A stretch of 64,000 nt of DNA from Paramacrobiotus metropolitanus. Lineage: Eukaryota; Tardigrada; Eutardigrada; Parachela; Macrobiotidae. Where the stretch lies: assembly GCF_019649055.1 (NCBI RefSeq), contig NW_026570463.1:38681-102680 (forward strand), read 5' to 3'. The notes beneath the pieces were generated by a model. The model had not been told where the DNA came from, ran no database searches, and saw nothing but the letters and a program-made list of their open reading frames with translations. The translations under genes and the position numbers were made by a program. Each line of letters begins with the position of its first letter. Position 1 is the stretch's first letter. This document shows positions 30,956 to 64,000 of the stretch, piece after piece.

Positions 30956-31078
30956 TCAAAAATGTGGATAAATCCGCAAATAAATCGGCGAATAAATCCA
31001 CGAATAAATCCGCGAATAATCCGAATAAATCCAGAAACATTCCGAATAAATCCGCGAATAAATCGGAATAAATTCGCA
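30910..31078. repeat. 12-bp AATAAATCCGCG-type minisatellite encoding the Cbl tail
   Basis: Variants of GAATAAATCCGC recur about a dozen times with small indels. On the minus strand they are read in the Cbl frame as [11 protein letters not shown] repeats up to the TGA at 30956. The array continues a little past the stop codon. Confidence 0.85.
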
Positions 31079-34000
31079 CAATTCAGCGCCGCGGCGCCAA
31101 TTTGGGCGAGGGGGCCGGGGACGCCCCGCGCGGGGCACCGGCGGCGCCAGCCCATTGACCACGCCCAGCCGCCGCGCCCCCAGCAGGGGCGAGCTGCCGG
31201 GGGTCCCGGCGGCGCTCCACTCGTCCTCGACGTCCACCAGCGGCCGCTGCGCCCCATTTTCTTCACTTTTACCCCCCGGGGGCGACCCGCCGACACCCCC
31301 CGCGGGGCGGAAGGGCTCCACGACCACCGCCTCCGTGTCCTTGATCTCGGCGCGGCAGAAGGGGCAGGTGGGCGTGGCGGCGGCCGTCTCCGAGTCCTGC
31401 CAGTGCTGCAGACACGCCGTGCACAGGAGATGGCCGCAGGGCTCCAGACGCACGTCCTTGTCGCGTTCGGCGCAGATCTTGCATAACTGGAAGGTGCTGC
31501 CCATCTCGCAGTACAGTTCGTACTGTTCTTGGGTGACGCGGATGTGGTCCTCGGTGTCCGGGCCCATCGCCCACGAGAGGTCCACGTTGACGTGCCGCCC
31601 GTCCGGATACAGGTAACTGCCGGCCCGAGAAACACATTTTACGCTTAAATTTCATCGTGCAAATGTGTAAAAATATTTTAGCTGCGTTTTAACAATTAAT
31701 TTTCTGATTTTTTTAATTTAAATTATTTCATTTCTCAGCGCTCAACCCAATTCAACTCGCGTTTCTTCCCATTACTTCTTAATAATTTTTTTAAAAAAAT
31801 CTTTATTTTAAATATTTATTGTTACATTTATAATTTTAAGCTGTATAATAAAGAATTATTTTAAAAATAATTAAATAAGTTAATTTATTAAAATTCATAT
31901 AAAGCAAACTATTTAAAATTCGTACAATTACCTAATAAAATGGTTATATGGATGAAAGAAGGAAATGAAGAGAATTTGACGATGAGGGAATTTACGTGAA
32001 AACTTGTCCACGTAAATGTATTATCATTTTCCAGAATAATACTACGGACGCGTGTATCTGTATGTACGCTGAAAACTGCCAAGAATAATGGAAGAAAATT
32101 CTTCCGATTACGTACAAGCGTTCGCGGGCGCCGTCGAGGAGCGCCTGGCACAAGGATTTATTCTGCGGGATCGTCTGCAGGATGCTGCCGTCCTGGGTGA
32201 CGTAGCCGATGGCCCACTGCCCGAGGCGGGTGCAGCTCAACCGGAACACGTAACTGCCAATAAATTCATTGAAAATACCGGCAATTTTCTGTGCTTTTAC
32301 AGTTATAACCATCTATTTTCCATTTATTACCTTTCCACGGCAAAAATAAATTTATTCACGTCAAAACCAATTTTTACTTTTTCTGTGCTTGTAAAATCAG
32401 TATTAAAACGTACTAGTTTTTAGCACAGGAAAATGCCATAACAGCACAGATGATTTAATTTGTTAATTTAATTTAATACTTTTCTGTGTTAATTAAATCC
32501 GTTTTAAATTAAATCTAATTAATAAATTAATTTTTTCAAATTAATTTACTTAAATCCGCGCTGACCTGCCGGGTTTGTTGATGAACTGCTGCAGACGCGC
32601 CTTCACCTCGTCATACGTCAGAAACGCCACGTATCCCGGATGCGTGACGGCCAGAATCTGCCAGTTCTTCAGCAGCGTCGGCCACGGCTGGAACAGCCTG
32701 AAAAGCAAAACACCACAACAATAATCTCCCAGATAATCTTCTTTTAATCAAGAAAAAAAACATCACAGCGAGCAGACAGGCAACACCAATCCGTGTGCCA
32801 AAAATCGCTGGTAGTCTGTAAATCTGATGGCGCGCCTGCTCTGACACGCACCGACCACCGGCGCGCATCGCGTCGCCACACGCGACGCCGGCGCTCATCC
32901 GGCCAACACACCGATAATTCCATTCCAGCTGTATTTTCTCAGCGCAATCAAATACTGTTTATTTAAAAATACACGTACCGCAATTTTTAAATCAATTAAA
33001 TTATTTAATTTTTTAAATTATTTTTTCCATTTCGTATTACCATGGTTTTTTTTCTAAGTCAGATTGATTACAATTTAAAATTTTGAATAGCTTCAGTTTT
33101 CACAAACTGCTACAATGCATCGTAATGTTTTAAAAATTTTTTAAAAATGACTTAATGTTTAATATTTCGGTTTTCTAATGTCAGATAGTTTTCTGTGCTA
33201 ACTGAATTAATTTTTCAATTACCATGTTTGTTTTACAACGAAAATAAAGTTATCAATTCATATTAATTCCATTTTTTTTCTGATTATTAAATCCACTTCG
33301 GTATTTTATGAATGATTAAGCGAAATTAAACAAACATTTAAAATAATATTAATTTCCAGCTTATTAAATTCAATTTATATTTATAGTCTTGTCGAAGCCA
33401 AATTAAACATCCGTAAATTGTAATTTCATTTTTCACAAAATACCGTGAAACGTCTGTGTTTTTCAGATGAATTTTCGACCCATACGAAGCCACGAAGCGT
33501 TAAAAAGCCTACCAAATCTGATATGATTAAATTCCAGAAAACAACCATAAAAAACGTTACTAAAATCTAAATAAATCAAAATACTTGTATATAAAATAAC
33601 CCATTAAAAATAGAAAGTAAACTATCAAGTGTATTGCAGTCGGTTGGCCGTGTTTAACAAGATGAAACCCGAGCCGGGGGCTTATGCAATAATGCAACAC
33701 GTATAAAAGCCCGTCCTTCACCTTGCGCGACCGCAACAACGCAACAACAATGGCGTTTTCATGTCGCTTACCGTGTGAAAATGTCGAACTCGAAAATGGA
33801 CACGCAGTCGTTGCCGGTGAGATCGAGGGTGCTCTTCAGCGCCGCGGCCTCCATCGGCGAGGAGATGGGCTGGCGCACGTGCAGTTTAGCCAGGAAGGAC
33901 GTCCACGACACGATGATTCTGCGGCACAACGTCACAAAAATTAAATAAAAATTATTAATGAAAAATAAATAAAAATTCTCTTCCGTCGCGTCTGGAAATT

Positions 34001-36059
34001 CTGTTAACAGTCATTTATAAATAAAGAAAAGTTCCTCCCTTCCGTCGCATCGGGACGCTTCACTAAAATTTCTATTAATCATCGCATTGCGTGAGCTGCC
34101 ACACGAAGCGTTCAAAATAATTTTTAAATAATAATACACAAAATAAATTAAAATACTTTTTCTCGTGCAGCGCCAGGGCGTCTTATTGCAAATTTTTTTA
34201 TTATTCCCGCTTCTAATTACTGTGTTTTATTTTCATTAAAATTTAAACTTTTGTTAACTTGTTAATTGTTATTATTATTAATTTGATAATGATAGTAACA
34301 GTAAGAATATTCCTAATATTTAAGAAAAATTATAAATACGGGGAAAAACCTTCAAAAATCGTCTCTCTCGTCGCGCCGGGACGTTTGCTAAAAGTTCTAT
34401 TAATAATCGGATCAATTACAATTTCCGCCCACTTCTCGCGAACAAACAGGGCTTTGGATAAAATTACATAAGCGAAATGAGCGTGACAAGTGTGGTTTGT
34501 GTCGCTAAAAATCTCTGAGGAGCGATCCCAGCTGTGATCGCTGGGCCCAGGAGAATCGCCGGCTTGTTGCGCTCCACTTCGGCGATACTCGGATGAATTT
34601 CCGAAATTACCCAATAAGGTGGAGTGCATCAGCTGCTGCCGCATCGGGGAGTGCCCAGCGCAAACAATACACTCATTCAGCACACCGAAGAATTAATTTC
34701 GACAAATTATTTCTAAATTCAACTGACTTCAGGTTTCGGGAAAAAATTACCACGTTGTACATAAAAAATATGCTTGGGTGAAAATTCCACAATAACACAA
34801 GTTAAAAAAATTAATTTCATTTAATTTCAAATTTTCAGAGAAAATAATTAATAATAATTTCAATTTGTTAATAATTGCAGTCAATTTCAAATTCAGTTTT
34901 TTCAATTAAAAATCAAAAATTAATTTAACTTAATTTCAGCGCAAATTAATTTCCAATAATAATCGGGAAAATAAGAACACAAAATATTACCCAAGAAAAT
35001 CTCAGTAAAAATACAGTATAACAATAAAATATAGTAAATGATTTAACCTTTCAACTAACAAAGACGGCCAAGTTCTAAAAATTTTTTATCAAATAGCTTT
35101 AACGTCAAAAATTAGAAAGGCAGAAAATATGCTATAAAGATTACTGTAAAAGAACTTCAGCATTCTGATGAATTATTAAAATATAATTATGGCAAATGAA
35201 TGTCAACGAAATTAACTGAGAATTAGCAGAATACGGTGCAGAAATGAAGAACCTGTACGCCACACTGCGTACTGATGCAGTCACAGCACGGAAGACGAGC
35301 AAGTGCGCGTAATTAAATCAACCATAAACACCGTAATTAATCGCAACAAGTGTGGCAATTAGCAGAACACGGCGCGGAAGTGAAAAGCCTGTACGCCACC
35401 CGCACCTGCTGCTACAGTACACATGGAAGCACACCACTTGCGCCGCTAATCTTCTGCCTTAATTTACCGTTGCTGGAATTCTCTCACCTGTCATGGAACG
35501 TCGCTTTCCACCACTCCGCCGCGTCCGCCTTCGTAATGCGGAACGAATCCCCCGCGTACTCCCCGTTGGGATACAGCGCCTTCAGCTCGGCCAGCATATG
35601 CGAGAACACCAGCGACAGCTTATTGAGATTCCGCCGCGCCGCCGATTTCTCCTCGAACATCCCGTCCTTGGCGTCCTTGAACAGTTTAATCGTCTCCTTA
35701 CATTTCCGCGTCAGATTATCCACGAACAGATTGAAATAATCCTCGTCCCGCGCCGTAGGCCGCTCGTCATGCCGCTGGCAGATGAGTTTCAGGTGCTGGA
35801 AGGTGTCGGGGATGATGTCCAGGATAAATGGGGGGCTGTTCTTCAGACGCATCCTGGGTTGTTGGCACAGGGTGACCACTTTGTCCATGAGTTTGCACAC
35901 CTTGTCGGAGGTCCGCCGCTCATTTCCCCCCGTGGTGGGGGGGCCGGAAAGGGCCTCCTGGAGGCGCCCCCAGATGGAGGAGGGGACAGGGGGGGTGGTG
36001 GTGTTGCGCAGCATGGAGGGGGGCGCGTTCAGGCGGCTGCCGTTGTTCAGCGACATCAT
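30956..36059 (-). CDS. Cbl: E3 ubiquitin ligase Cbl (5 exons)
   Basis: Minus-strand exons are 36059-35488, 33918-33772, 32697-32566, 32253-32116 and 31616-30956. Every junction is phase 2, and the product is 549 residues. The N-terminal tyrosine-kinase-binding region is complete. The four-helix bundle in exon 1 includes [19 protein letters not shown]. The EF-hand spans exon 2 into exon 3 (EFDIFTRLFQPW). The SH2-like domain is in exons 3-4 ([35 protein letters not shown]). The linker helix keeps both regulatory tyrosines ([11 protein letters not shown], Tyr362 and Tyr365, equal to human Tyr368 and Tyr371). The RING finger has Cys375, Cys378, Cys390, His392, Cys395, Cys398, Cys414 and Cys417. 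A short Pro- and Gly-rich region follows. There is no UBA domain, as in short Cbl forms. The last ~35 residues are a Tyr/Ile/Ser repeat. Cbl binds phosphotyrosine motifs on activated receptor kinases and ubiquitinates them for endocytic down-regulation. Confidence 0.97.
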
Positions 36060-36289
36060 TTTACGAGGTGATCAGCATGATAAAAAAGAGGAGAGTTTTC
36101 TGGTTGAGTTGATTCCATCCGGAGCGGTGTGTGTGGTGGGAGATGGGAAAGTGTCATTGGGAAGGCGATGGAAGCATGCGTGAGGAATGCTTGGCAGGTG
36201 TAAAAATTATTATTTTTGCGCTCTGACTGGTGAGCTCATTCGTGTCGGTGCGCGTTCAGCGACGATGCGTACGTACTTACTGACAACAC
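36060..36289. other. Cbl upstream region
   Basis: This short segment between the Cbl start codon and the inverted-repeat element at 36290 must contain the 5' leader and proximal promoter. No obvious core element was recognised. Confidence 0.4.
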
Positions 36290-53472: not shown

Positions 53473-54376
53473 AAACTCATCCCCGGTTAGCAGCCCCACT
53501 GAATACAAAAACAACACCTCGAGGAGGACAAAGTGCATGGAAAATATGTGTTAGTTGTTAACTGGTTATTAAGGGATTTGGCCCGGTATATAGCAGTAAT
53601 AGCACAGAATTCGTGTACATTGACGGGAACTTTCGCTGTCGCGCACTCCCAAACACTTTTTTGCATTGCTTTATGAGATTTTGTAGCCAATGAATTTGCA
53701 TTCGTAGGCGTGAAATCCGTTTAATTTCGCGCGCGACATCCGGTTGCGGCGTTATGAGGTTAACAAAATTCCAAAAAGTTTGAATGCATTCTGCAGGTGT
53801 ACCAAAAGTTTCATTATGGACCGATCCCTTTCAAATTTTGCATGTAAATGCATTTAAGCATGAAGATTGTTTTGGTGCGGATCCAGACTTCTACGATTTT
53901 TTTCAAATTTCAAAATGAATTTCGAAAATTTTAAAATTCATTTTAAAATTTGAAAAACATGCTAGAACAGTGAATCGGTGCCAAAACGATCTTCGTGGTT
54001 AAGTGCATTTAAGGGCAAAATTGTAATGGGAGCGGTCCATAATGAGACTTTTGGTACATCCGAATGCATTTAAACTTTCTGGAATTTTGTTACTCTCATA
54101 ACTCTGCAACCGGATTTTACGCGCGCAAACGGAGTTTACAACTACGTATACAATTCTTTTGGCTGAAACATCTCATAAAGCGATGCAAAAAGGTGTTTGG
54201 GAGTACGCGACAGCGAAAGTTCCCGTCAATGTACACGAATTCTGTGCTATTACTGCTATATACCGGGCCAAATCCCTTAATAACCAGTTAACAACTAACA
54301 CATATTTTCCATGCACTTTGTCCTCCTCGAGGTGTTGTTTTTGTATTCAGTGGGGCTGCTAACCGGGGATGAGTTT
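53473..54376. mobile_element. ~0.9-kb palindrome: TTAA MITE plus inverted flanks, in F-box intron 2
   Basis: The core element 53569-54280 is bounded by TTAA on both sides (53569-53572 GGGATTTGGCCCGGTATA; TATACCGGGCCAAATCCC 54277-54280). Its two halves are ~85-90% inverted repeats around an AT-rich centre at about 53925. The palindrome extends ~96 bp beyond each TTAA: 53473-53568 and 54281-54376 are nearly identical in inverted orientation (CATCCCCGGTTAGCAGCCCC / GGGGCTGCTAACCGGGGATG). A further terminus GTACCGGACCAAATCCC-TTAA follows at 54377-54397. This suggests a MITE nested in another MITE of the same family. Confidence 0.85.
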
Positions 54377-55599: not shown

Positions 55600-55770
55600 C
55601 GCCGTTGGACAATTCGTCGCAGGACATCCAGACGCGAGGACATTTCGCGTTCGGACTTTTCGTCGCGCGGACATCTCGTTTTGGGAAATGTTGTTTTGAG
55701 GACATTTCGTCACGAGGAAATTTCGTTTTGGGAAATTTGGTTTTGGGACAATCTGGCGCAAAACTCTCAC
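55600..55770. repeat. GGACATTTCG-type degenerate tandem array
   Basis: About eight variants of GAGGACATTTCGTCRCG or GGGAAATTTCGTTTTG follow one another. They resemble one terminus of the element at 9073-9502 but are more diverged and have no inverted partner nearby. Confidence 0.65.
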
Positions 55771-56510
55771 AACGATAATATCGCTATTAATATCTTTATT
55801 ACAAGCGCAAATACAGCACTTATAATGCTAATAATTACAATAACCAAACCGCCGTCTTAGTTAAATTTTATTTACTCATTTAAATCATTATTGCGAACAA
55901 ATTTACAATATCCCTCCAATAAGATCGAAAATTATGTGCTTTACTATATTTAGAATCAGGGTACGGCTTCGTTCAGCTGCGGTTAATCTACCTACAACCG
56001 TGTAACATTCAAGATAACCATCGTTATTTTTTTGAGTTATTTTTTATGTTTTTGCAAAAAATTGTAGCTAATCTCCACTGCTAACAATTGTAAAACGATC
56101 AATGTCAGATATGACACAGAAGCAGATGGAAAATGGGGCAAATAGCCTTTATTGTGATAACAATAAAGTAACAACACAAAAACCAACAGAAAACCCGATA
56201 GGGAAAAGCTGCGGAAAAAGTAGCTGCAAGCGCGCTCGTGAGAATCGTGATAATGATTCAGCGTGCTGCAGCTATGCAACAGCTGATGCCGCAAAGCATG
56301 GAATCGCTCGTAGGCGCTGGGCTACGCCCCCAAGAGTGCTGCGATGCGCTGATTGGTCAGCGAGACAAAGTAAACGCTGAGTAAGCAGCGTAGTAGCGCG
56401 GCACCAATGGCGTTGCCATGTGCGGGCGGGCGATAGAGCAAGCCACAAGAGGTGTCTACCGCCTCGAGTGAGCGGTCTCTAACATGCCTCTGGCCGGGAG
56501 TGGGAGCTCC
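55771..56510. other. Transition into the GGACC-rich domain
   Basis: AT-rich up to about 56200, then rising GC. A frame at 56102-56380 (+) has no domain. Confidence 0.35.
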
Positions 56511-57456
56511 TGCGAGCACCTTCCGACTCTGCCCCTGGCCAACCCGGTAGGGTGCTCGCGGTGCAGTGCACCGAACGGCCGAAATCCGGAGTGCACTCTG
56601 GTTGCTGGGGGTTCCAGTGTGGTCGAAGGCTTGCTTTGGTCGAACGGGTAAAAAATAAAGTGTATAAGGCTCAAGTAAAGTAAAGATCAAAGTTAGAGAT
56701 CCCAAAGCCAATTCGTTTGGTTATTTGGCTAAATAAAAACATCAATTTCTCTGGTTAATAAGTCTAGAAAAACCAGGTATGGTTAAAAAACTAGACGCAA
56801 AATGGCTTATTCCGACTAGGTTTACCACAGGGCAGGGTCTGTCCACACGGGTCCTAGTCAACGGTCCGCTTTATCCGGTAGGATTGAACTGGTCCTGTAA
56901 ATCCGGGGCAACGGTTCCCAGAGATGTCCACAGGGGTGCAGTGAAGTAAATCCAGCGGAGTGTTATATGGAAGGTACTGTTGCTTTCGCAAGGACAAGTT
57001 GTCCCCTTCCTGGTTCAGTATGGTGGACCAAGCCCGGTAGGGCGGTCCATGAGGGCCAATGAGTAAGGCCTCTGGGCAGGAGTGGTACTCCAATGACCAA
57101 AATGGTATTCTGGACCGATTCCTTTTGGATGGCCCACATGGGTCTCTAACTTGGACCGGTTTGGTCGTGCATGCCGGTTTGGTCATGCACCTCGGTCCAA
57201 AAATTTCAAAGTTCGAGTGTACTCCGGTTGGGACATGCATCTCGGGCCAAAATCTTCTAAGTCCAGGAGAGCCACAGTGGAAAAATTTCTAAGTCCGAGG
57301 ACCAAAGTGGTGTGATGGACCAAACCCGTTGGGGCGGCCCAAACTTGGTCTCTGACATGCCCTGAGCCGGGATACGAGGTTCCACTGTGATGTGGCTCGC
57401 CTCTGGCTGGTGCAGGACTTGGGAGTCCTGTATAACAGGCTTTGGCTCTCCGATGT

Positions 57457-57782
57457 GGACTTAGTCGTTTTTTTAATGAGCCACGTCGTTGGACGGGCCA
57501 AAGGACTTAGTCGATTTTTGGATGGGCCACGTCGTTGGACGGGCCAAAGGACTTAGTCGATTTTTGGATGGGCCACGTCGTTGGACGGGCCAAAAGACTT
57601 AGTCGATTTTACGATGGACCATGTCGTTGGACGGGCCAAAGGGACTTAGACGATTTTTGGATGGGCCACGTCGTTGGACGGGCCAAAAGGGCTTAGTCGA
57701 TTTTTCAACGGTCCAAGGCAAATGGCGGGCAAAATTTACTTAGTCGTTTTGTCGACGGTCCAAGGTTGATGGCGGGCCAAAG
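57457..57782. repeat. 46-47-bp minisatellite, ~7 units
   Basis: Units begin GGACTTAGTCGATTTTTGG and continue ATGGGCCACGTCGTTGGACG-GGCCAAA. Units 2 and 3 are almost identical. The last two units diverge (GACGGTCCAAGG, ATGGCGGGCCAAA). The array opens directly from sequence carrying the hairpin family. Confidence 0.95.
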
Positions 57783-58149
57783 TTGCAGACTTGTTAAGTC
57801 TGGTCCGTCTCACTGGCCGTGGGCCATCAGTTAAGTACCATGTCAGATATGTCGGATTTGTTTCCCTGAGACCGTGGCCATAACAAAATTAAGTGGCTTC
57901 TGACGAAAACATCAGATTGGCCGGGCCAAACTCCAAAAAATTAAGTTGCGGGCGCCGGTAGGCGTTCACCACAAAGGAGTTGGTCTGCTGACTAGGAACA
58001 TCCTCGTTTGGCCGCTGGGCGGTGCGTCTTTTTGATGTGCCTCTGGGCGATCCATGGTGAGGATGTTGGACGTGGAATGCAAAGTGGGTGTACCACAACT
58101 TCTATGTGGCTCCCGGACTCACTTGTCCCAGTTGCGTGGTATGGCAACT

Positions 58150-58330
58150 AATCTCGGGAGCCGCATGTGGTCCGTTGGACACACAGCGGGCCTGGTCCAA
58201 CTTCTATGGGCCAGGACTTTGCCATGGCTTGTCGCAACTTTTTTGCGGGCCAGGCTGATCCATGGCTTGTCGCAACTTCTATGCGGGCTCTATGCGGGCC
58301 GTCGCCGCCTTCTGGGCGCTGGATCCTTTC
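58150..58330. repeat. ~55-bp imperfect direct repeats
   Basis: The words CCATGGCTTGTCGCAACTT and TTCTATGCGGGCC or TTTTTGCGGGCCAGG alternate three times. This is a short diverged array in the same domain. Confidence 0.6.
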
Positions 58331-58606
58331 CATGCCGGTGAACCGGGCCTTGTGCCAAGTTCGGTCCGGTGGACTCCGTCGAATGGTCTGTGATGGTCGA
58401 GCCAAATTCATGGTCCCAGCCGCTAAGCCAGAGCCTATCCGGGGAATCCGGTTAAGATCCAGGGATTAAGGTCCGGTAAGGTAGACGATACATGGCTGTA
58501 AGCCACGTTTGTTGGGCGAGGGTAACAACCGCTGGATTGTACCCATTATGGTGGTCAAGTTCCGTTTCAGCATTATGGTCGGAGTAAAGCTGGATAAGCC
58601 ATTGGC

Positions 58607-59356
58607 TCAATCCAGGCGGCGCAGCGTCGTAGCTGCTTCTGACATCAGGGCCAAAAATCGTCTAAGGCAGTCTTGCAATTCGCGCCCGGTTGTTTCCAAC
58701 TCGTCCGCCAAAATACGCGGTTCCTGTATCCAGTTCTGGACACCGGCATCCGTTCTATCGTGGATAGACCGTGGGCGTTGAGCGTGTACTGAGCGCTGCT
58801 CGTGACGATTCCAGCGTTGGCCATTATTTAGGCGGTGAGTGGCGCGGTTTGTTTTCCCAGGTCGCGAGGAGTGCACTGGTAAAGCTGACGGCTGAGCCGC
58901 CACGGTAGTGGTTGCTATCAGTGTGCCGTGATGTTGGGACAACACCGTGGGTGCGGGTTCCTGAAGTCCGTGCTGGGCCAGGTAAGGCTGTGACGGGCCG
59001 TTTGGCTGAGCTGTCCCGGTAGAGACAGCCGCTGATGGGACGTATGGCTGTGTTGCCGACGCAAACAGAATTCCTCCCAGGAAAGCCTCCCGTAGAAAGG
59101 CAAGAAGGTCCATCTTCCTGCCCAGATCGTTGTCTTCATTTTGGCAGATGGTTTCGACCACCTGTTTGTACACGGCCGGATTGCCTCGTTTGATTTCGTT
59201 GGCCAAAGCTATGCCGATGGCGTTTTCGTCACCGTCGTGTGGCACTGCTTCAGCAATGAAACATGAATAGCACGGAAGCCGCCTTTCTTGATACGGGCTG
59301 TTGCTGACGCATGATTCACATTCCGGGTTAAACGCTTGCTTCGGTGTCTTTGCCAT
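58607..59356 (-). CDS. Unrecognised 249-residue protein with CxxC pairs
   Basis: The ORF starts at ATG 59356, a few bases after CCACAGAAC, a possible splice acceptor. The N-terminus has CESC and, 13 residues later, CYSC (residues ~13-32), which could bind zinc. A helical segment follows (AIGIALANEIKRGNPAVYKQ, KMDLLAFLREAF). The middle is Pro-, Ser- and Gln-rich, and a helical C-terminus ends ETTGRELQDCLRRFLALMSE. There is no known domain. The layout (Cys pairs, helical head, low-complexity middle, helical tail) is that of a DNA-binding, adaptor or gag-like protein, but no function can be given. It lies just downstream of the low-complexity frame at 59519-61245. Confidence 0.5.
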   Translation of the reverse strand: MAKTPKQAFNPECESCVSNSPYQERRLPCYSCFIAEAVPHDGDENAIGIALANEIKRGNPAVYKQVVETICQNEDNDLGRKMDLLAFLREAFLGGILFASATQPYVPSAAVSTGTAQPNGPSQPYLAQHGLQEPAPTVLSQHHGTLIATTTVAAQPSALPVHSSRPGKTNRATHRLNNGQRWNRHEQRSVHAQRPRSIHDRTDAGVQNWIQEPRILADELETTGRELQDCLRRFLALMSEAATTLRRLD

Positions 59357-59518
59357 GTTCTGTGGTTAAAGCCCGAAGTCATGGTTAAATTTGCTTCGCG
59401 AACTGGTCCCTATGTTTTTACAATGCTATCAGTTTACGTCCTATGATTTAAATGTTATTTGTTAACTAGGCTTTTCTTGCCCGGTGAATTATTTCGGGGT
59501 CACCCCCTAGACCTCTGG
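59357..59518. other. Spacer between the two minus-strand reading frames
   Basis: Includes CTTTAACCACAG immediately before the 58607-59356 frame. This could be a 3' splice site on the minus strand. Confidence 0.4.
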
Positions 59519-61245
59519 TTAAAACCGTCGGTCAGGAATCTTCTTTGACCCGGATTCTTTGGATTGGGATCTAAAAGTAATCTGGTCTGGACTTGACTCT
59601 TTGTCGGATTCAGTGTATTGCTCCGTTGGGAGAACCGCCGTATCTGGGCCACCTTGAAGATTCTGTCGGGCCTCCGTTGGAGCCACCGACGATGCAATCT
59701 GAGGTGATGTTCGAATCAAGGGTCCTGGTTCGAGTGGTATTTTTGGCAGGGAAGCCGTTCGTACTGGTCTTTTCGTTTTCTTGTGTTCCATTCTTCTGAG
59801 TTGTTCTTGCCGAGGGGCGGCGGAGGCTATTATCATTCTGGGTGGAAGAGGGCAGCTAATGGTCCTCTTTGTTTCCCAATTCCTCCGATCGACGTAATCA
59901 GGAATTTCGGCACTCGGTAAACCCGGGTTGTCACCAAGTGGAACATCCAAAGTAACTAAAGAGGCTCCCGGAGCCACGATAGTGGTTTACGGTGCCGGTC
60001 CAACGTAGTTGGCCGGTTTGGTTAAAGGCAGGGCCTTAGGTGCGCGTCCTGTGGTTTTTAAGACCGATCCAGGCAGCTCAGGGGGTCCAGCCGGCACCGT
60101 GGGTGCGGTTGGTCCGGATGATGTACATGCTTGATCAGGTACCGGCCTAGGTTGCTGGCCGGATGGACTTAGCTTTTCAGTCGCCAAGGTTGCGTTGGTT
60201 TGTCCGCCGAGTGCTGCTCTTTTGGGTCCGGCCGGGCTTGTTGTTTTTACTGGACTCGTCTCGCTAGGGAGGTCCAGTGATGATTCGAGCAAATCGTTCA
60301 CAATGCCCGAGATGTCAAGATGGGTTGAGGTACAAGTTGGACCGTCGATCCCGTCCTTTATTTGCATTAGTTCGTCCATCCACTCCTCCAATGGATCAGC
60401 CGTAGGCTGGGGATTCGTAAGTGGGATGCATGATTGTGCATGTCCTTGGACACCAGTTAGTGGTTCCGTAACTGGACTTGAGTTGGGTTGGACTGGTAAG
60501 GGAACGGTGACCGCTGGCTCCATCGAAGAAGTTGTTGGGGCTTTGTCCTGCGGAAAGGCCAAATGAATTTTTGATGTTGTAGCGAACGTTGGTGCTACCG
60601 GAAGATCTGGTTTGGCTGCTGTCCGCGGTTCTGTCGGCGTCCTGCGTGTGGAGGAACCGTGTGCCGATGCCGTTGTAACAGACGGTTGGGCCGCTACTGG
60701 CAGCAGTGCCGTTGACACTGTATTCGTTGGTCGCGCCGTAAGGCCAGCCAGGTGGGTCGGCCTCGGTGCTGGTGACGGGTTTGGTGCTGGGTAAGGTTCA
60801 CTGGTCCTGGTAGGTACGGTGTCTGGTAACCGTATGGTGGTGGATAGCCGTATGGTGGGTACCAAAACCACGGTAGTGGCTGGTATTGCCAGTACGGATT
60901 CTGGTACGGGGTCATCCATGAACTGTGCTGGGGCGTTAGTCCAGGCATCATTGGTGGTCCATATGGCGTCACTGGAACGTTCTGTCCAGGTGCCGCACTT
61001 TGTGTCTGGATTCCTGATGGCGTCCGCACCGTAGGTGGGACTGATGGCCATCCCGGTCCAGAGCTGTGCGATAGAGACGTTGCTGCTAGATCGCTGGGCA
61101 GATTTGGTGGCTGGTTGAATGCTTGTAGCGTGGATGATGACGCTGTCCGTGGTATGGGATTCGATCCGGGTCTTAAGTCCGATCTGCTGTGCAGATGTGT
61201 CCGGTTACCTTGGTTAGATCCGCTGGATGGTTGTTTTCTTTCCAT
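59519..61245 (-). pseudogene. Long Pro/Thr/Ser-rich reading frame, one frameshift and one stop
   Basis: It starts at ATG 61245 (MERKQPSSGSNQGNRTH), again just after CCACAGAAC. It passes a Tyr/Pro-rich region (PPYGYPPPYGYQTPYLPGP) and shifts frame near 60800. It then stays open through a Thr/Pro-rich stretch and a helical acidic segment (EEWMDELMQIKDGID, VNDLLESSLDLPS) to a stop at 59989-59987. The same frame then continues to 59519 (PGASLVTLDVPLGDN ... KKIPDRRF). No enzymatic domain was seen. It may be a disabled gene, a gag-like frame, or a gene with an intron removing the frameshift. Confidence 0.4.
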
Positions 61246-61532
61246 CGTTCTGTGGTCGGGGAAGACAGTAAGGAGGTGTTAGAATTCTACTAACAACTGT
61301 ACGCCAAAATCCGTAGATAACTTTAAATGTTCACTACGGCTATTGCTAAGCTGATGGCGATTTGCGATTTTAGTCATGGCTTGGTGTTAATGGCTCGGGC
61401 TTGCTATTTGGACCGGCCAAGTTTTGGCCGTTCAATGTCCATCCACAACCGTAAGTTCTGGTCCCTAGAGCTTTTGACGACAAGCTGGGCGCAGGGCAAG
61501 GGTTGCTGAAGACCACGGACGTCCATGTTATG
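61246..61532. other. Spacer in the GGACC-rich domain
   Basis: No gene recognised. On the minus strand it is the immediate upstream region of the 61245 frame. Confidence 0.4.
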
Positions 61533-61707
61533 AACTTCCTGGTTTGGACTTCCTGGTTTGGACTTCCTAGTTTGTACTTCCGGGTCCGCACTTCCTGGTT
61601 TGGACTTCCGGATTCGGTCTTCCGGGTTAGGACTTACTGGTTTGGACTTCCTGATTTGGACTTCCTGGTTTGGAATTTCTGAATTGGACTTCCGGGTCCG
61701 GACTTGG
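61533..61707. repeat. 14-bp minisatellite GACTTCCTGGTTTG, ~12 units
   Basis: Near-perfect units GGACTTCCTGGTTT alternate with variants CTTCCGGGTCCG and CTTCCGGATTCG. Similar single units recur at about 62690-62715. Confidence 0.95.
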
Positions 61708-61899
61708 ATTTTCGGATTGTGGAGGACCGGTCCCGTTAGGGTGGTCCATATCCTTCCAAGTGACCAAGCTTCTTGAAGCCGTCTTAGCTTTATGGCTCTT
61801 GGTCGTTCAGGTAGGAGTGGTGCTCCTGGGTGGATCCGCCCTTGGACGGTCCAAGTTCCATTTGTCCAAGTGCGCCACTGCAGGGTATGTGCCTGGCGG

Positions 61900-62060
61900 A
61901 GCCAATGTAGTTAGCGGGTCAGTGTTATTGGCGAGCCAACGTTGATGACTGGTCAGTGTTGTTTGGTGGGCCAATGTTGTTGATGGCTGGCTAATGCTGT
62001 TGGCGGTCCAATGTTATGAGCGGGCCAATGTTGTAAACCCGTAGGGCCAACATTAAGATG
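61900..62060. repeat. GGGCCAATGTT-type degenerate repeats
   Basis: GAGCCAACGTTG, GGGCCAATGTTGTTGATGG, GTCCAATGTTATGAG and GGGCCAATGTTGTAAAC follow at ~30-bp spacing. Confidence 0.75.
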
Positions 62061-62249
62061 AGCCTATGATACAAGCTCCTAAGCGCAACCATGATGCGCG
62101 TCCATGTTAATTCATGGTGGACCAGTCCCGTTGGGGCGGTCTCTGGGTGAGCTCTGAGCTGGTGCGGTGCTCCTGCTTGCGCGTACTGGTCCGGTTGGGA
62201 CTGTCCAATTCCAGGGTATTAAGACGCACCAGTGCTATGCTGAAAATGT

Positions 62250-62380
62250 TTGGGCGCGCCAACGTAACTTCTATACATGGCGGGCCAATGGTGAAGGTAA
62301 TAAGGCGCGCCAAGGTATATGGCGGGCCAACGTTAACGATATTAAGGCGAGCCAAAGTATATGGCGGGCCAATATTGAAA
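62250..62380. repeat. ~45-bp repeats GGCGCGCCAA...TATGGCGGGCCAA
   Basis: Three units: GGGCGCGCCAACGT to ATGGCGGGCCAATGG, AAGGCGCGCCAAGG to ATGGCGGGCCAACG, and AAGGCGAGCCAAAG to ATGGCGGGCCAATA. Confidence 0.8.
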
Positions 62381-64000
62381 ACTCGTAGAATCCATTCTGG
62401 TCCGTGTATAAGGCCGTTGGCCTCCAGTAGGCGCGTTGCTTGCGCAATTTCCCTGAGACTTCAGCCATGAAGTAAACGGTGGTCGGAGCCCTGTAGTGGC
62501 CCGAACCCAACAGGTGGCTGGTTCTCACGAGACCATCGGATTGGCCAGGACTTCGTGGTTTGGACCTACCCGTAGGGCGGTCCAAAGCACGTCCAGGATC
62601 GATGTTCCAGGTCCAGGTGCCCTTCAATGACTTTTAGATCGTGAAGGCAAGTGCTGGTGATTGGACGTCCAAGATGTGGGCGTCTGGGTTGGAACTTCCG
62701 GGTTGGACTTTCGGGTACGGACCATCTCATTTGGACCGACCCGTGGGGTGGTCCGAAGTCCGTCCGGATAGGTCCGAAATTTTACGACTCGTTGAGTCGA
62801 TTTAGAGATCATCTTACCGGCGGTTTGCCGAAAGAGAGCTTCAAAGACGGTCCTACGTTTAAGGATCCGTCTGGCAGGCCTAGGTTATAGGTGCCAAGTT
62901 CAGTTAGCGGGCCCGGTGAGTCTGCTTGAAACTTTCTCTCTGCGCCGGCTGGACGCGAGAGAACATGAACGGTCGAGGTCCAACTGGTTACCAGGTCTGG
63001 TCCAGTTGGAGGATGATTCATCTGGTTCAGGTGGGGACGTTTCTGGTCCACAGAGTTTATTTGAGCCTGTGGGGCTCATTGTTTTCAGGTTCGGGTGCCG
63101 TTCTGGTCCGAACACATTGTTGCTGGTCCTTCGGTTTCAGGCTGGTCCTTCTGACCATGTTTGGCGACTGGTCCTTCTGACCCGGTTTGGTTTGAAGCCG
63201 CCAGTAAGGTTTGGATTTCCAGTAAATTCCGCGTTCTTGATTCACAGGTTCTCAGACCGCGGGTAAGTTCCAATTGCCTCTCGAACGGATCAGCCCATGC
63301 CTCCAACGATCCCAAAAGTCCTTACCAGCTACAGGACAAGTCGACCCTGTGCCTGGTAACGATTCCTTTTGGATGAGCTGCTCATTGCTAGGCACCCGGC
63401 TCCGTTGGGCCGGTGCCTCTGGTATCGGGATAGCGTTTGCTATCCCGTGCGACAGTGCTTCTGCGGTGTGGCAACACTGGTTTTCGGTGTCTCGGACTCC
63501 CGTTGCTGTGTCGAGGGGCGGGCTATCCTCGCAGGTTGTGGGCTTGGATGTCGGGTGATCAATCCGGTTTATCCGAGCTTTATAGCCTGCACTGCCCGAT
63601 GCCTCTGGTCGAGGGATAAACTGCAGCACCGCTATGGATGGTCTTGGAGTCTGGTGAGTGGAACCTTCTGCCACTATGTTGGTCGAGAGGATGCATTTCT
63701 GCAGAGGCTCTACATGACCGTTGGTCTGTAGAGGGTCGTAAACTATGCTACGTGTCACTGGACGGGTAGCTAATCCGTCAAGTTCACACGTTCACAATAT
63801 TTCACTGAGGCGGCGGTGGTTGCTGCTAAAGTTGGGTCATTTTCCCTGGGCCCGTGGGGAAAGTTGACTTGGTCCGCGTCCTTAGCGGACGATCCACCTG
63901 GATTTCTACCGATGGATCCCTCCGTACCCTTGACGGGACGTCCATCCGTTGTACATACGGTGTACATACGGTGGCCGTTTCAGGACACGTTCTTGCATCC
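62381..64000. other. GGTCC-rich sequence without recognised gene
   Basis: It contains hairpin copies at 62559, 62731 and 63390 but no frame with a domain. Long frames on both strands at 63252-63758 overlap each other and are likely compositional. A short direct repeat TACATACGGTG lies at 63953-63974. Confidence 0.4.

Follow-up and report, generated by a model that had tools for sequence, protein, structure and literature searches.

What are the short hairpins that recur in the last part of a 64,000-nucleotide (nt) stretch of the genome of Paramacrobiotus metropolitanus (assembly GCF_019649055.1, contig NW_026570463.1, positions 38,681 to 102,680; the whole stretch is called the window below)? 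An initial annotation of the window had described them as a free-standing dispersed repeat of no known type, with a common core and with outer stems that differ but still pair, confined to a domain of about 7 kb. Judged by its sequence, this domain belongs to a giant Ty3/Gypsy long terminal repeat (LTR) retrotransposon, of which it forms the 3' part, with the antisense sequence on the plus strand. The hairpins are not a repeat of their own but parts of this element; they are most frequent beside the LTR, in the 3' region, and also present upstream. Their loop, strand and register suggest that they may act on the RNA of the element.

Read in the sense direction of the element, the unit consists of a variable outer stem, 0–1 nt, a 3-base-pair inner stem, a loop of the form NA(A/C)C or NAC, the second arm of the inner stem, 2–3 nt and the second arm of the outer stem. 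In the commonest form, which lies on the minus strand of the window, the outer stem is followed by one purine, CCC, a tetraloop, GGG, three nt and the outer stem. Cores were found in 47 sequences of the family at 252 sites in sense and at none in antisense; these were reduced to 133 distinct sites, and the 97 of those with at least four of six Watson-Crick outer pairs were described further. The loop is NAAC or NACC in all 97, the unpaired 5' base is either G (62 sites) or A (35 sites), and three nt are unpaired on the 3' side. Single hairpins fold as drawn, with z from −1.8 to −4.3 for eight hairpins of the window and −3.17 for the hairpin L045:2922 of another copy. In the 3' regions of L045, L046 and L047, a second kind of hairpin without an internal loop was seen by eye (e.g., CAGGAG-CACCA-CTCCTG, and GCAGGA...TCCCGC with a recurring A-C mismatch).

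The class was counted with a descriptor that admits any stems, namely an outer stem of at least five Watson-Crick pairs, an inner stem of three, and a longer unpaired run on the 3' side than on the 5' side. In nine family stretches this gave 61 entries with the loop NAMC or NAC in sense (55 non-overlapping; both counts treat related copies separately) and 0 in antisense, with shuffle means of 0 to 0.20 loop-class hairpins per stretch. The element part of the window (7,514 nt, without the LTR) gave 8 in sense and 0 in antisense against a mean of 0.13 in 15 shuffles, which confirms that hairpins carrying the core of the initial annotation, with outer stems that pair, lie at or near the places given there and on one strand. 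Shuffled sequence, a control named beforehand as one that could overturn the claim, thus does not reproduce hairpins that share a loop. A scan of 66 kb at all offsets, in which registers are repeated counts because one helix yields several, found 138 loop-class registers in sense and none in antisense, against a total of 19 over five shuffles; other loops gave 103 sense registers. Upstream of the 3' region, the loop class is present in 10 of 18 sense hairpins of the C1 copy and 8 of 16 of the C68 copy, both of the 24-kb type, against 0 of 13 and 0 of 25 antisense hairpins, respectively; 40 shuffles gave means of 0.35 (C1) and 0.25 (C68) with maxima of 1 and 2, and the closing pair is C-G in 16 of these 18 upstream loop-class hairpins. 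Two pieces of the C68 element (L053 and L054), fetched after the class had been defined, held 7 sense and 0 antisense sites.

Outside the family, two loop-class hairpins were counted on the two strands of 75.9 kb of presumed host sequence, and a covariance model of the hairpin (R1) found no match in window positions 1–56101 at expectation values (E) up to 10. Three stretches of sister Gypsy elements (7.5 kb from the integrase downstream, GC 54–56%), which are a sample of three among 63 sister integrase matches and may miss part of the 3' regions, have the loop class in 0 of their 5 sense hairpins by the same descriptor; the all-offset scan gave three loop-class registers in them, and the best covariance-model match had an E of 1.1. 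The number of hairpins as such is another matter. A loop-blind count of internal-loop hairpins gave 18 entries (15 places) in the window element against a shuffle mean of 5.2 and a maximum of 9 in 40 shuffles, and the same count gave 12 and 28 in two 7.9-kb host stretches; the raw hairpin number is therefore not distinctive and was rejected as evidence. What is distinctive is the shared loop, the strand and the register. The narrower pattern CCC-4-GGG with at least five outer pairs occurred as 2 entries in the window element and 3 in 40 shuffles together.

The pairing of stems that differ in sequence was upheld by two tests. An alignment of 49 distinct hairpins was made from 48 of 52 listed hairpins (L045:5163, L010:1041, L021:1055 and L030:444 were left out) and one from the window. 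Its covariation score is 0.345 against 0.085 when shuffled, 94.8% of cells pair against 80.8%, and 45 cells, against 7.9, differ on both sides yet still pair; a shift of the partner by one column lowers the score to 0.05–0.07. Since these 49 rows were chosen for pairing, the unpicked set of 133 distinct sites is the fairer test, and 72% of them form four or all of the five Watson-Crick pairs at the 1 × 3 register, with at most 2% at off-diagonal offsets, so that most sampled cores have paired stems. When arms are exchanged between these sites, 37% still pair, because most sites share the stem GGACC/GGTCC. Compensated changes can also be read between copies, for instance TAGACC/GGTCTA in C68 and C3 against TGGACC/GGTCCA in C29, and, inside an open frame, GTTTG/CAAAC in C1 against GTTCG/CGAAC in C68, C29 and C30. 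Comparing the conservation of hairpins (0.92–0.98) and flanks (0.84–0.98) in 39 copies was uninformative because the copies are too alike.

At least eight hairpins had been said to share the core. The exact core CCCGNTNGGG occurs six times on the plus strand of the window element and not on the other strand, and the occurrence at 56194, inside the LTR, is without an outer stem; the remainder of those counted are near-variants, with triloops at 62559 and 62732 and a changed inner stem at 62979. The stems named there are real except for GCGAGCACC/GGTGCTCGC, which was rejected as a family member. Among 39 aligned 3' regions (L011 lacks that stretch), that of the window is the single one in which the 5' arm of this stem adjoins the core, and most other copies have at this place up to three tandem cores, two of them with stems of their own (CTGGC/GCCAG and ATCCG/CGGAT). 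The window copy is short of about 75 nt there, and the stem is a product of this deletion.

In the genome of 170 Mb, against which the searches were run, a strict pattern with the GGACC/GGTCC stem has 136 sites, against 0 for a reversed control. Eight of these places, hand-picked with clusters first from the 100 listed, were opened, and all eight lie inside related elements with an LTR match. The hairpins can stand in rows, with eight cores at a spacing of 50–132 nt in the C3 copy and seven in the C68 copy. The core is also found outside the retrotransposon family, for instance in another dispersed repeat (e.g., C1:1244216–1244249 and C2:2779567–2780152), which carries CCCTAACGGG (GTCACTCGTTCCCTAACGGGCTTTTTACACTGAA) without the stem of the hairpin family. 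Rfam gave 0 matches at gathering scores in the window and nine family loci, and 0 at E up to 1 in 56102–64000. The statement that no known type fits holds for the hairpins as far as Rfam goes and fails for their carrier, which is a known kind of element.

The element lies in minus orientation from window position 56103 onward, and the contig ends at the last base of the window. Positions 56102–56486 match both ends of a 13.3-kb copy (C46; L001, L002) and a 24-kb copy (C1; L004, L006) and are therefore the LTR; the window's own copy has this one LTR, and the remainder lies past the contig end. The two LTRs of a copy are 98.7% (C46) and 99.2% (C1) identical over 391 columns, which suggests that both were inserted recently. 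In the C1 copy, Pfam domains follow in Gypsy order (RVT_1, 8.1e-25; RT_RNaseH, 4.3e-33; rve, 3.9e-15). No Pfam gag family was matched in its gag region, in which a CX2CX4HX4C zinc knuckle occurs, as it does in C46. After the 5' LTR, both copies carry TGGTAGCAG, which resembles initiator tRNA-Met and is a candidate primer binding site. C46 is flanked by TACA; no target-site duplication is evident at C1, and no polypurine tract was recognised. Behind the integrase, C1 has open stretches that take up about 9 kb (L005 7874 to L004 7117); a Pfam search of these frames gave no convincing match, and they show weak protein similarity to the post-integrase frames of the three sister stretches.

Among 1344 genome candidates, 116 integrase matches were scored, of which 53 reach at least 75% identity to the window's family and the other 63, at 58–64%, fall into sister lineages. 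The closest relatives of the window copy are C27, C46 and C78, with an identity of 90–91% over 5.4 kb. The reverse transcriptase, RNase H and integrase of C1 gave no tblastn match at 1e-4 in window 56102–64000 or in the C46 copy, a search in which the 5' part of the window copy, beyond the contig end, had no place. C46 has kept gag-related sequence all the same, and copies without detected reverse transcriptase, RNase H and integrase retain the hairpins together with gag-related sequence that has the CX2CX4HX4C knuckle. On this comparison, the closest relatives of the window copy seem to be non-autonomous. The domain had been drawn to end near 63420, which does not hold, as the window stays similar to other copies as far as the contig reaches.

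The reading that we favour, tentatively and at close to an even chance, is that the hairpins are protein-binding sites at the RNA level that act like dispersed packaging signals and are read by the element's own Gag. The stems are free to change, while the loop (NAMC/NAC, mostly closed by C-G) and the asymmetric internal loop are kept, a design that suits recognition of these two loops by one RNA-binding protein; where stems are free, loop and internal loop are kept, and sites occur in sense only, in untranslated and coding sequence, one protein reading many sites would be expected. Gag might read many sites jointly and in this way select and condense a very long RNA for packaging, and relatives that lack pol and have hairpins may be packaged in trans. 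The retention of hairpins and gag-related sequence in copies without detected pol fits signals that are needed in cis. We infer that the RNA folds in cells, that protein binds it, that Gag is the binder and that packaging is the result. Taken at its widest, the proposal would be that an LTR retrotransposon has evolved a packaging code, with tens of loop-defined hairpins over a 24-kb RNA including its coding sequence, whose positions turn over but whose motif is kept, which Gag reads and which non-autonomous relatives share in trans; this is possible, and we hold it with more doubt than confidence.

Several results weigh against the favoured reading. The loop class was defined after part of the data had been seen, on the first hairpin count and on stretches fetched earlier. 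Two pieces of the C30 copy (L055 and L056) held 4 sense and 2 antisense sites; L056 is matched by no family protein, and part of it may therefore lie outside the element. Several upstream hairpins stand at different places in C1 and C68, so that, as read from these relatives, hairpin position turns over and the class stays. Among orthologous hairpins, 23 of 31 both-side changes pair, and among other-loop hairpins 12 of 17; the count of compensated changes therefore does not single out the loop class, and it was rejected as evidence for it. Among outer stems that have decayed, 8 cases of G-T stand against 9 of A-C, which shows no preference for G-T, and this test of the folded strand gave no signal. 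Regional folding of the 3' region has a mean z of −1.33 in sense and −1.24 in antisense, which is raised over host sequence and alike on both strands, and was dropped as evidence for an RNA strand; the upstream hairpin L004:6500 folds weakly (z −0.66). Without a G-T preference or strand-specific folding, the RNA-level reading therefore rests on the one-strand loop and the register. The host counts, the repeated registers and the late definition of the class leave our estimate as it was, because it is based on strand, register and loop.

An RNA-binding protein of the host could instead bind the hairpins and export, localise or stabilise the unspliced RNA of the element, which would make them a many-site transport element. 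The anatomy of loop and register fits any specific RNA binder, and hairpin density is greatest in the 3' region, where signals for RNA export, localisation or stability are often located. However, the loop class is missing from the three sister Gypsy stretches of this host, which indicates something private to the window's family, and upstream and coding sites would presumably be unneeded for simple export; we consider a host binder rather unlikely. The absence of the class from sister elements of similar GC also bears on the idea that the hairpins have no function, a short palindrome having been multiplied within the element by duplication and template switching, in a GC-rich, A/C-rich sequence that makes hairpins easily. 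For this idea speak the tandem repeats of the 3' region, hairpin flanks that are partly common within arrays, raw hairpin counts no higher than in host stretches, and ortholog covariation that does not single out the class. Nevertheless, the inner and outer stems are entirely different between sites while loop, strand and register are constant, and dinucleotide shuffles fail to give loop-class hairpins, so that spread without function has a small probability in our judgement.

The asymmetry of the unit also bears on a role at the DNA level, in which palindromes bound as double-stranded DNA or extruded as cruciforms would mark or regulate the integrated element. The stems are indeed palindromes on DNA, the copies decay without a G-U preference, and folding energies are similar on both strands, but a DNA palindrome would need neither the 0–1 versus 2–3 nt asymmetry nor a loop on one strand (0 antisense), and the stem sequences vary widely; we regard this as improbable. 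Control by hairpins of the translation or processing of several open frames on a long RNA is less probable still. A hairpin cluster at about 61723–63010 lies between longer open stretches of the window element, as such control would have it, yet the densest sites are in the 3' region by the LTR, past the long sense frames that are listed for C1, and upstream positions turn over between relatives.

Table 1. Positions of the element's features in the window; R1 scores refer to the covariance model.
Feature	Position	Strand	Evidence
LTR (3' LTR in sense), TGT...ACA	56103..56484	-	56102-56486 matches both ends of C46 and C1; boundaries read from copy ends and window sequence
3' untranslated region with hairpins and tandem repeats	56485..58571	-	76-91% identity to other copies
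Core hairpin left by the ~75-nt deletion; neighbouring tandem cores of other copies gone	56538..56555	-	R1 17.5 bits
Hairpin TGGACC-G-CCC-TACC-GGG-CTT-GGTCCA	57024..57049	-	R1 38.6 bits; fold z -3.68
Variant hairpin, inner stem TCC/GGA, loop AAAA, not in the loop class	57111..57136	-	R1 14.7 bits, E 0.039
Hairpin TGGGCC-G-CCC-CAAC-GGG-TTT-GGTCCA	57316..57341	-	R1 35.1 bits; fold z -2.28
Open stretches in sense, up to 405 amino acids, no Pfam family	58607..61278	-	Upstream part similar in C46 to post-integrase frame of C1 (ORF3a match in L001)
Hairpin TACCA-gc-CAC-tacc-GTG-gttt-TGGTA, within open stretches	60860..60885	-	Hairpin descriptor scan
Hairpin GGACC-A-CCC-TAAC-GGG-ACC-GGTCC	61723..61748	-	R1 34.1 bits; fold z -2.14
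Hairpin AATGTTG-g-CCC-tac-GGG-ttta-CAACATT	62027..62054	-	Fold z -1.80
Hairpin GACC-G-CCC-CAAC-GGG-ACT-GGTC	62120..62141	-	R1 22.2 bits
Hairpin TTTGGACC-g-CCC-tac-GGG-ta-GGTCCAAA	62559..62586	-	Triloop; fold z -4.30
Hairpin GGACC-a-CCC-cac-GGG-tc-GGTCC	62732..62755	-	Triloop; descriptor scan and R1
Hairpin TCCAACTGG-a-CCA-gacc-TGG-taa-CCAGTTGGA, with changes in the inner as well as the outer stem	62979..63010	-	R1 23.1 bits (62982-63007; is a row of model R1); fold z -3.31
AGGCACC/GGTGCCT hairpin of the initial annotation, loop AAC	63390..63418	-	Fold z -2.50; R1 7.8 bits
Hairpin CTCTACA-g-ACC-aac-GGT-ca-TGTAGAG	63708..63733	-	Fold z -3.39

Besides the features of Table 1, two tandem arrays were observed in the window element. 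One (61517–61716) consists of about eleven degenerate 14-nt units of the CTTCCTGGTTTGGA type, and because 14 is not a multiple of 3 the same 14-residue repeat appears in all its frames; the other (57457–57782, in the 3' region) consists of seven tandem units of 46–47 nt rich in GGGCCA and GGACGGGCCA, and one junction of such units forms the hairpin TGGCC-c-GTC-caac-GAC-gt-GGCCA in C1 and C46. Three 46-nt repeats lie near the edge of the element (55622–55745), and the host sequence holds an inverted pair (53473–53855 and 54001–54376) with 88.5% identity in 383 columns. On the minus strand, 30959–31651 and 35487–36071 are exons of a Cbl-type E3 ubiquitin ligase (Cbl_N, RING), with Cbl_N at 35487–36071 and CBL-B as the best match of 30959–31651; this gene marks the host as an animal.

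Among known LTR retrotransposons, Burro of planarians and Ogre of plants, as described in passages of PMC6431247, are likewise Gypsy-type elements of 20–30 kb with extra coding sequence, and Burro has a zinc-knuckle Gag as here, a likeness by description and not by sequence; the extra frames of the present element, in contrast, follow the integrase and have no convincing Pfam match. The two mentions of "hairpin" in these passages concern Helitrons. In Retand of plants (PMC11963269), similarly, a long stretch with tandem repeats separates pol from the 3' LTR, and some members are non-autonomous; unlike the present element it has antisense TRP28 frames, and the main text of that source uses none of the terms hairpin, inverted or secondary structure. 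For Ty3 of yeast, whose genomic RNA is also of the Gypsy/Ty3 kind, the account in the available part of PMC11381356 is that packaging needs both untranslated regions and POL and that the sites are not precisely defined; no hairpin family sharing a loop appears in it, and the likeness is again by description, not by sequence. Among the papers listed, at the level of titles and beginnings of abstracts and with subscription journals mostly outside the coverage, no report of such a hairpin family in an LTR retrotransposon was found. Going by the account of Ty3, even there the way in which an LTR retrotransposon selects its own RNA for packaging lacks a precise definition. A repeated hairpin defined by its loop offers a short element to mutate, a bait for its binder and a class of motif for which other giant elements can be searched.

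The closest parallel is found in viruses. Dispersed packaging signals have been described in single-stranded RNA viruses and hepatitis B virus (PMC6281560, PMC7612645 and PMC5431903, in the parts available), and there, as in the present element, many stem-loops of differing sequence on one RNA have a short common loop motif (PMC6281560). Many sites with a common loop are likewise spread over the element's RNA, and they lie in sense, the C30 pieces with their two antisense sites excepted. In MS2 an unpaired A stands on the 5' side of the stem (PMC6281560), and the hairpins of the element also have an unpaired 5' purine. The MS2 coat-protein operator type as given there, with its (x)xYA loop and 5' bulged A, was rejected as a match, the loop here being NAMC/NAC with three unpaired nt on the 3' side. 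The element further differs from the viral systems in that the carrier is an LTR retrotransposon and the loop is neither (x)xYA nor RGAG, and the likeness is one of sequence features. If true, the favoured reading would extend the idea of dispersed packaging signals from viruses to transposable elements, and the hairpins, with this putative function, would be packaging-signal-like elements in a new class of carrier.

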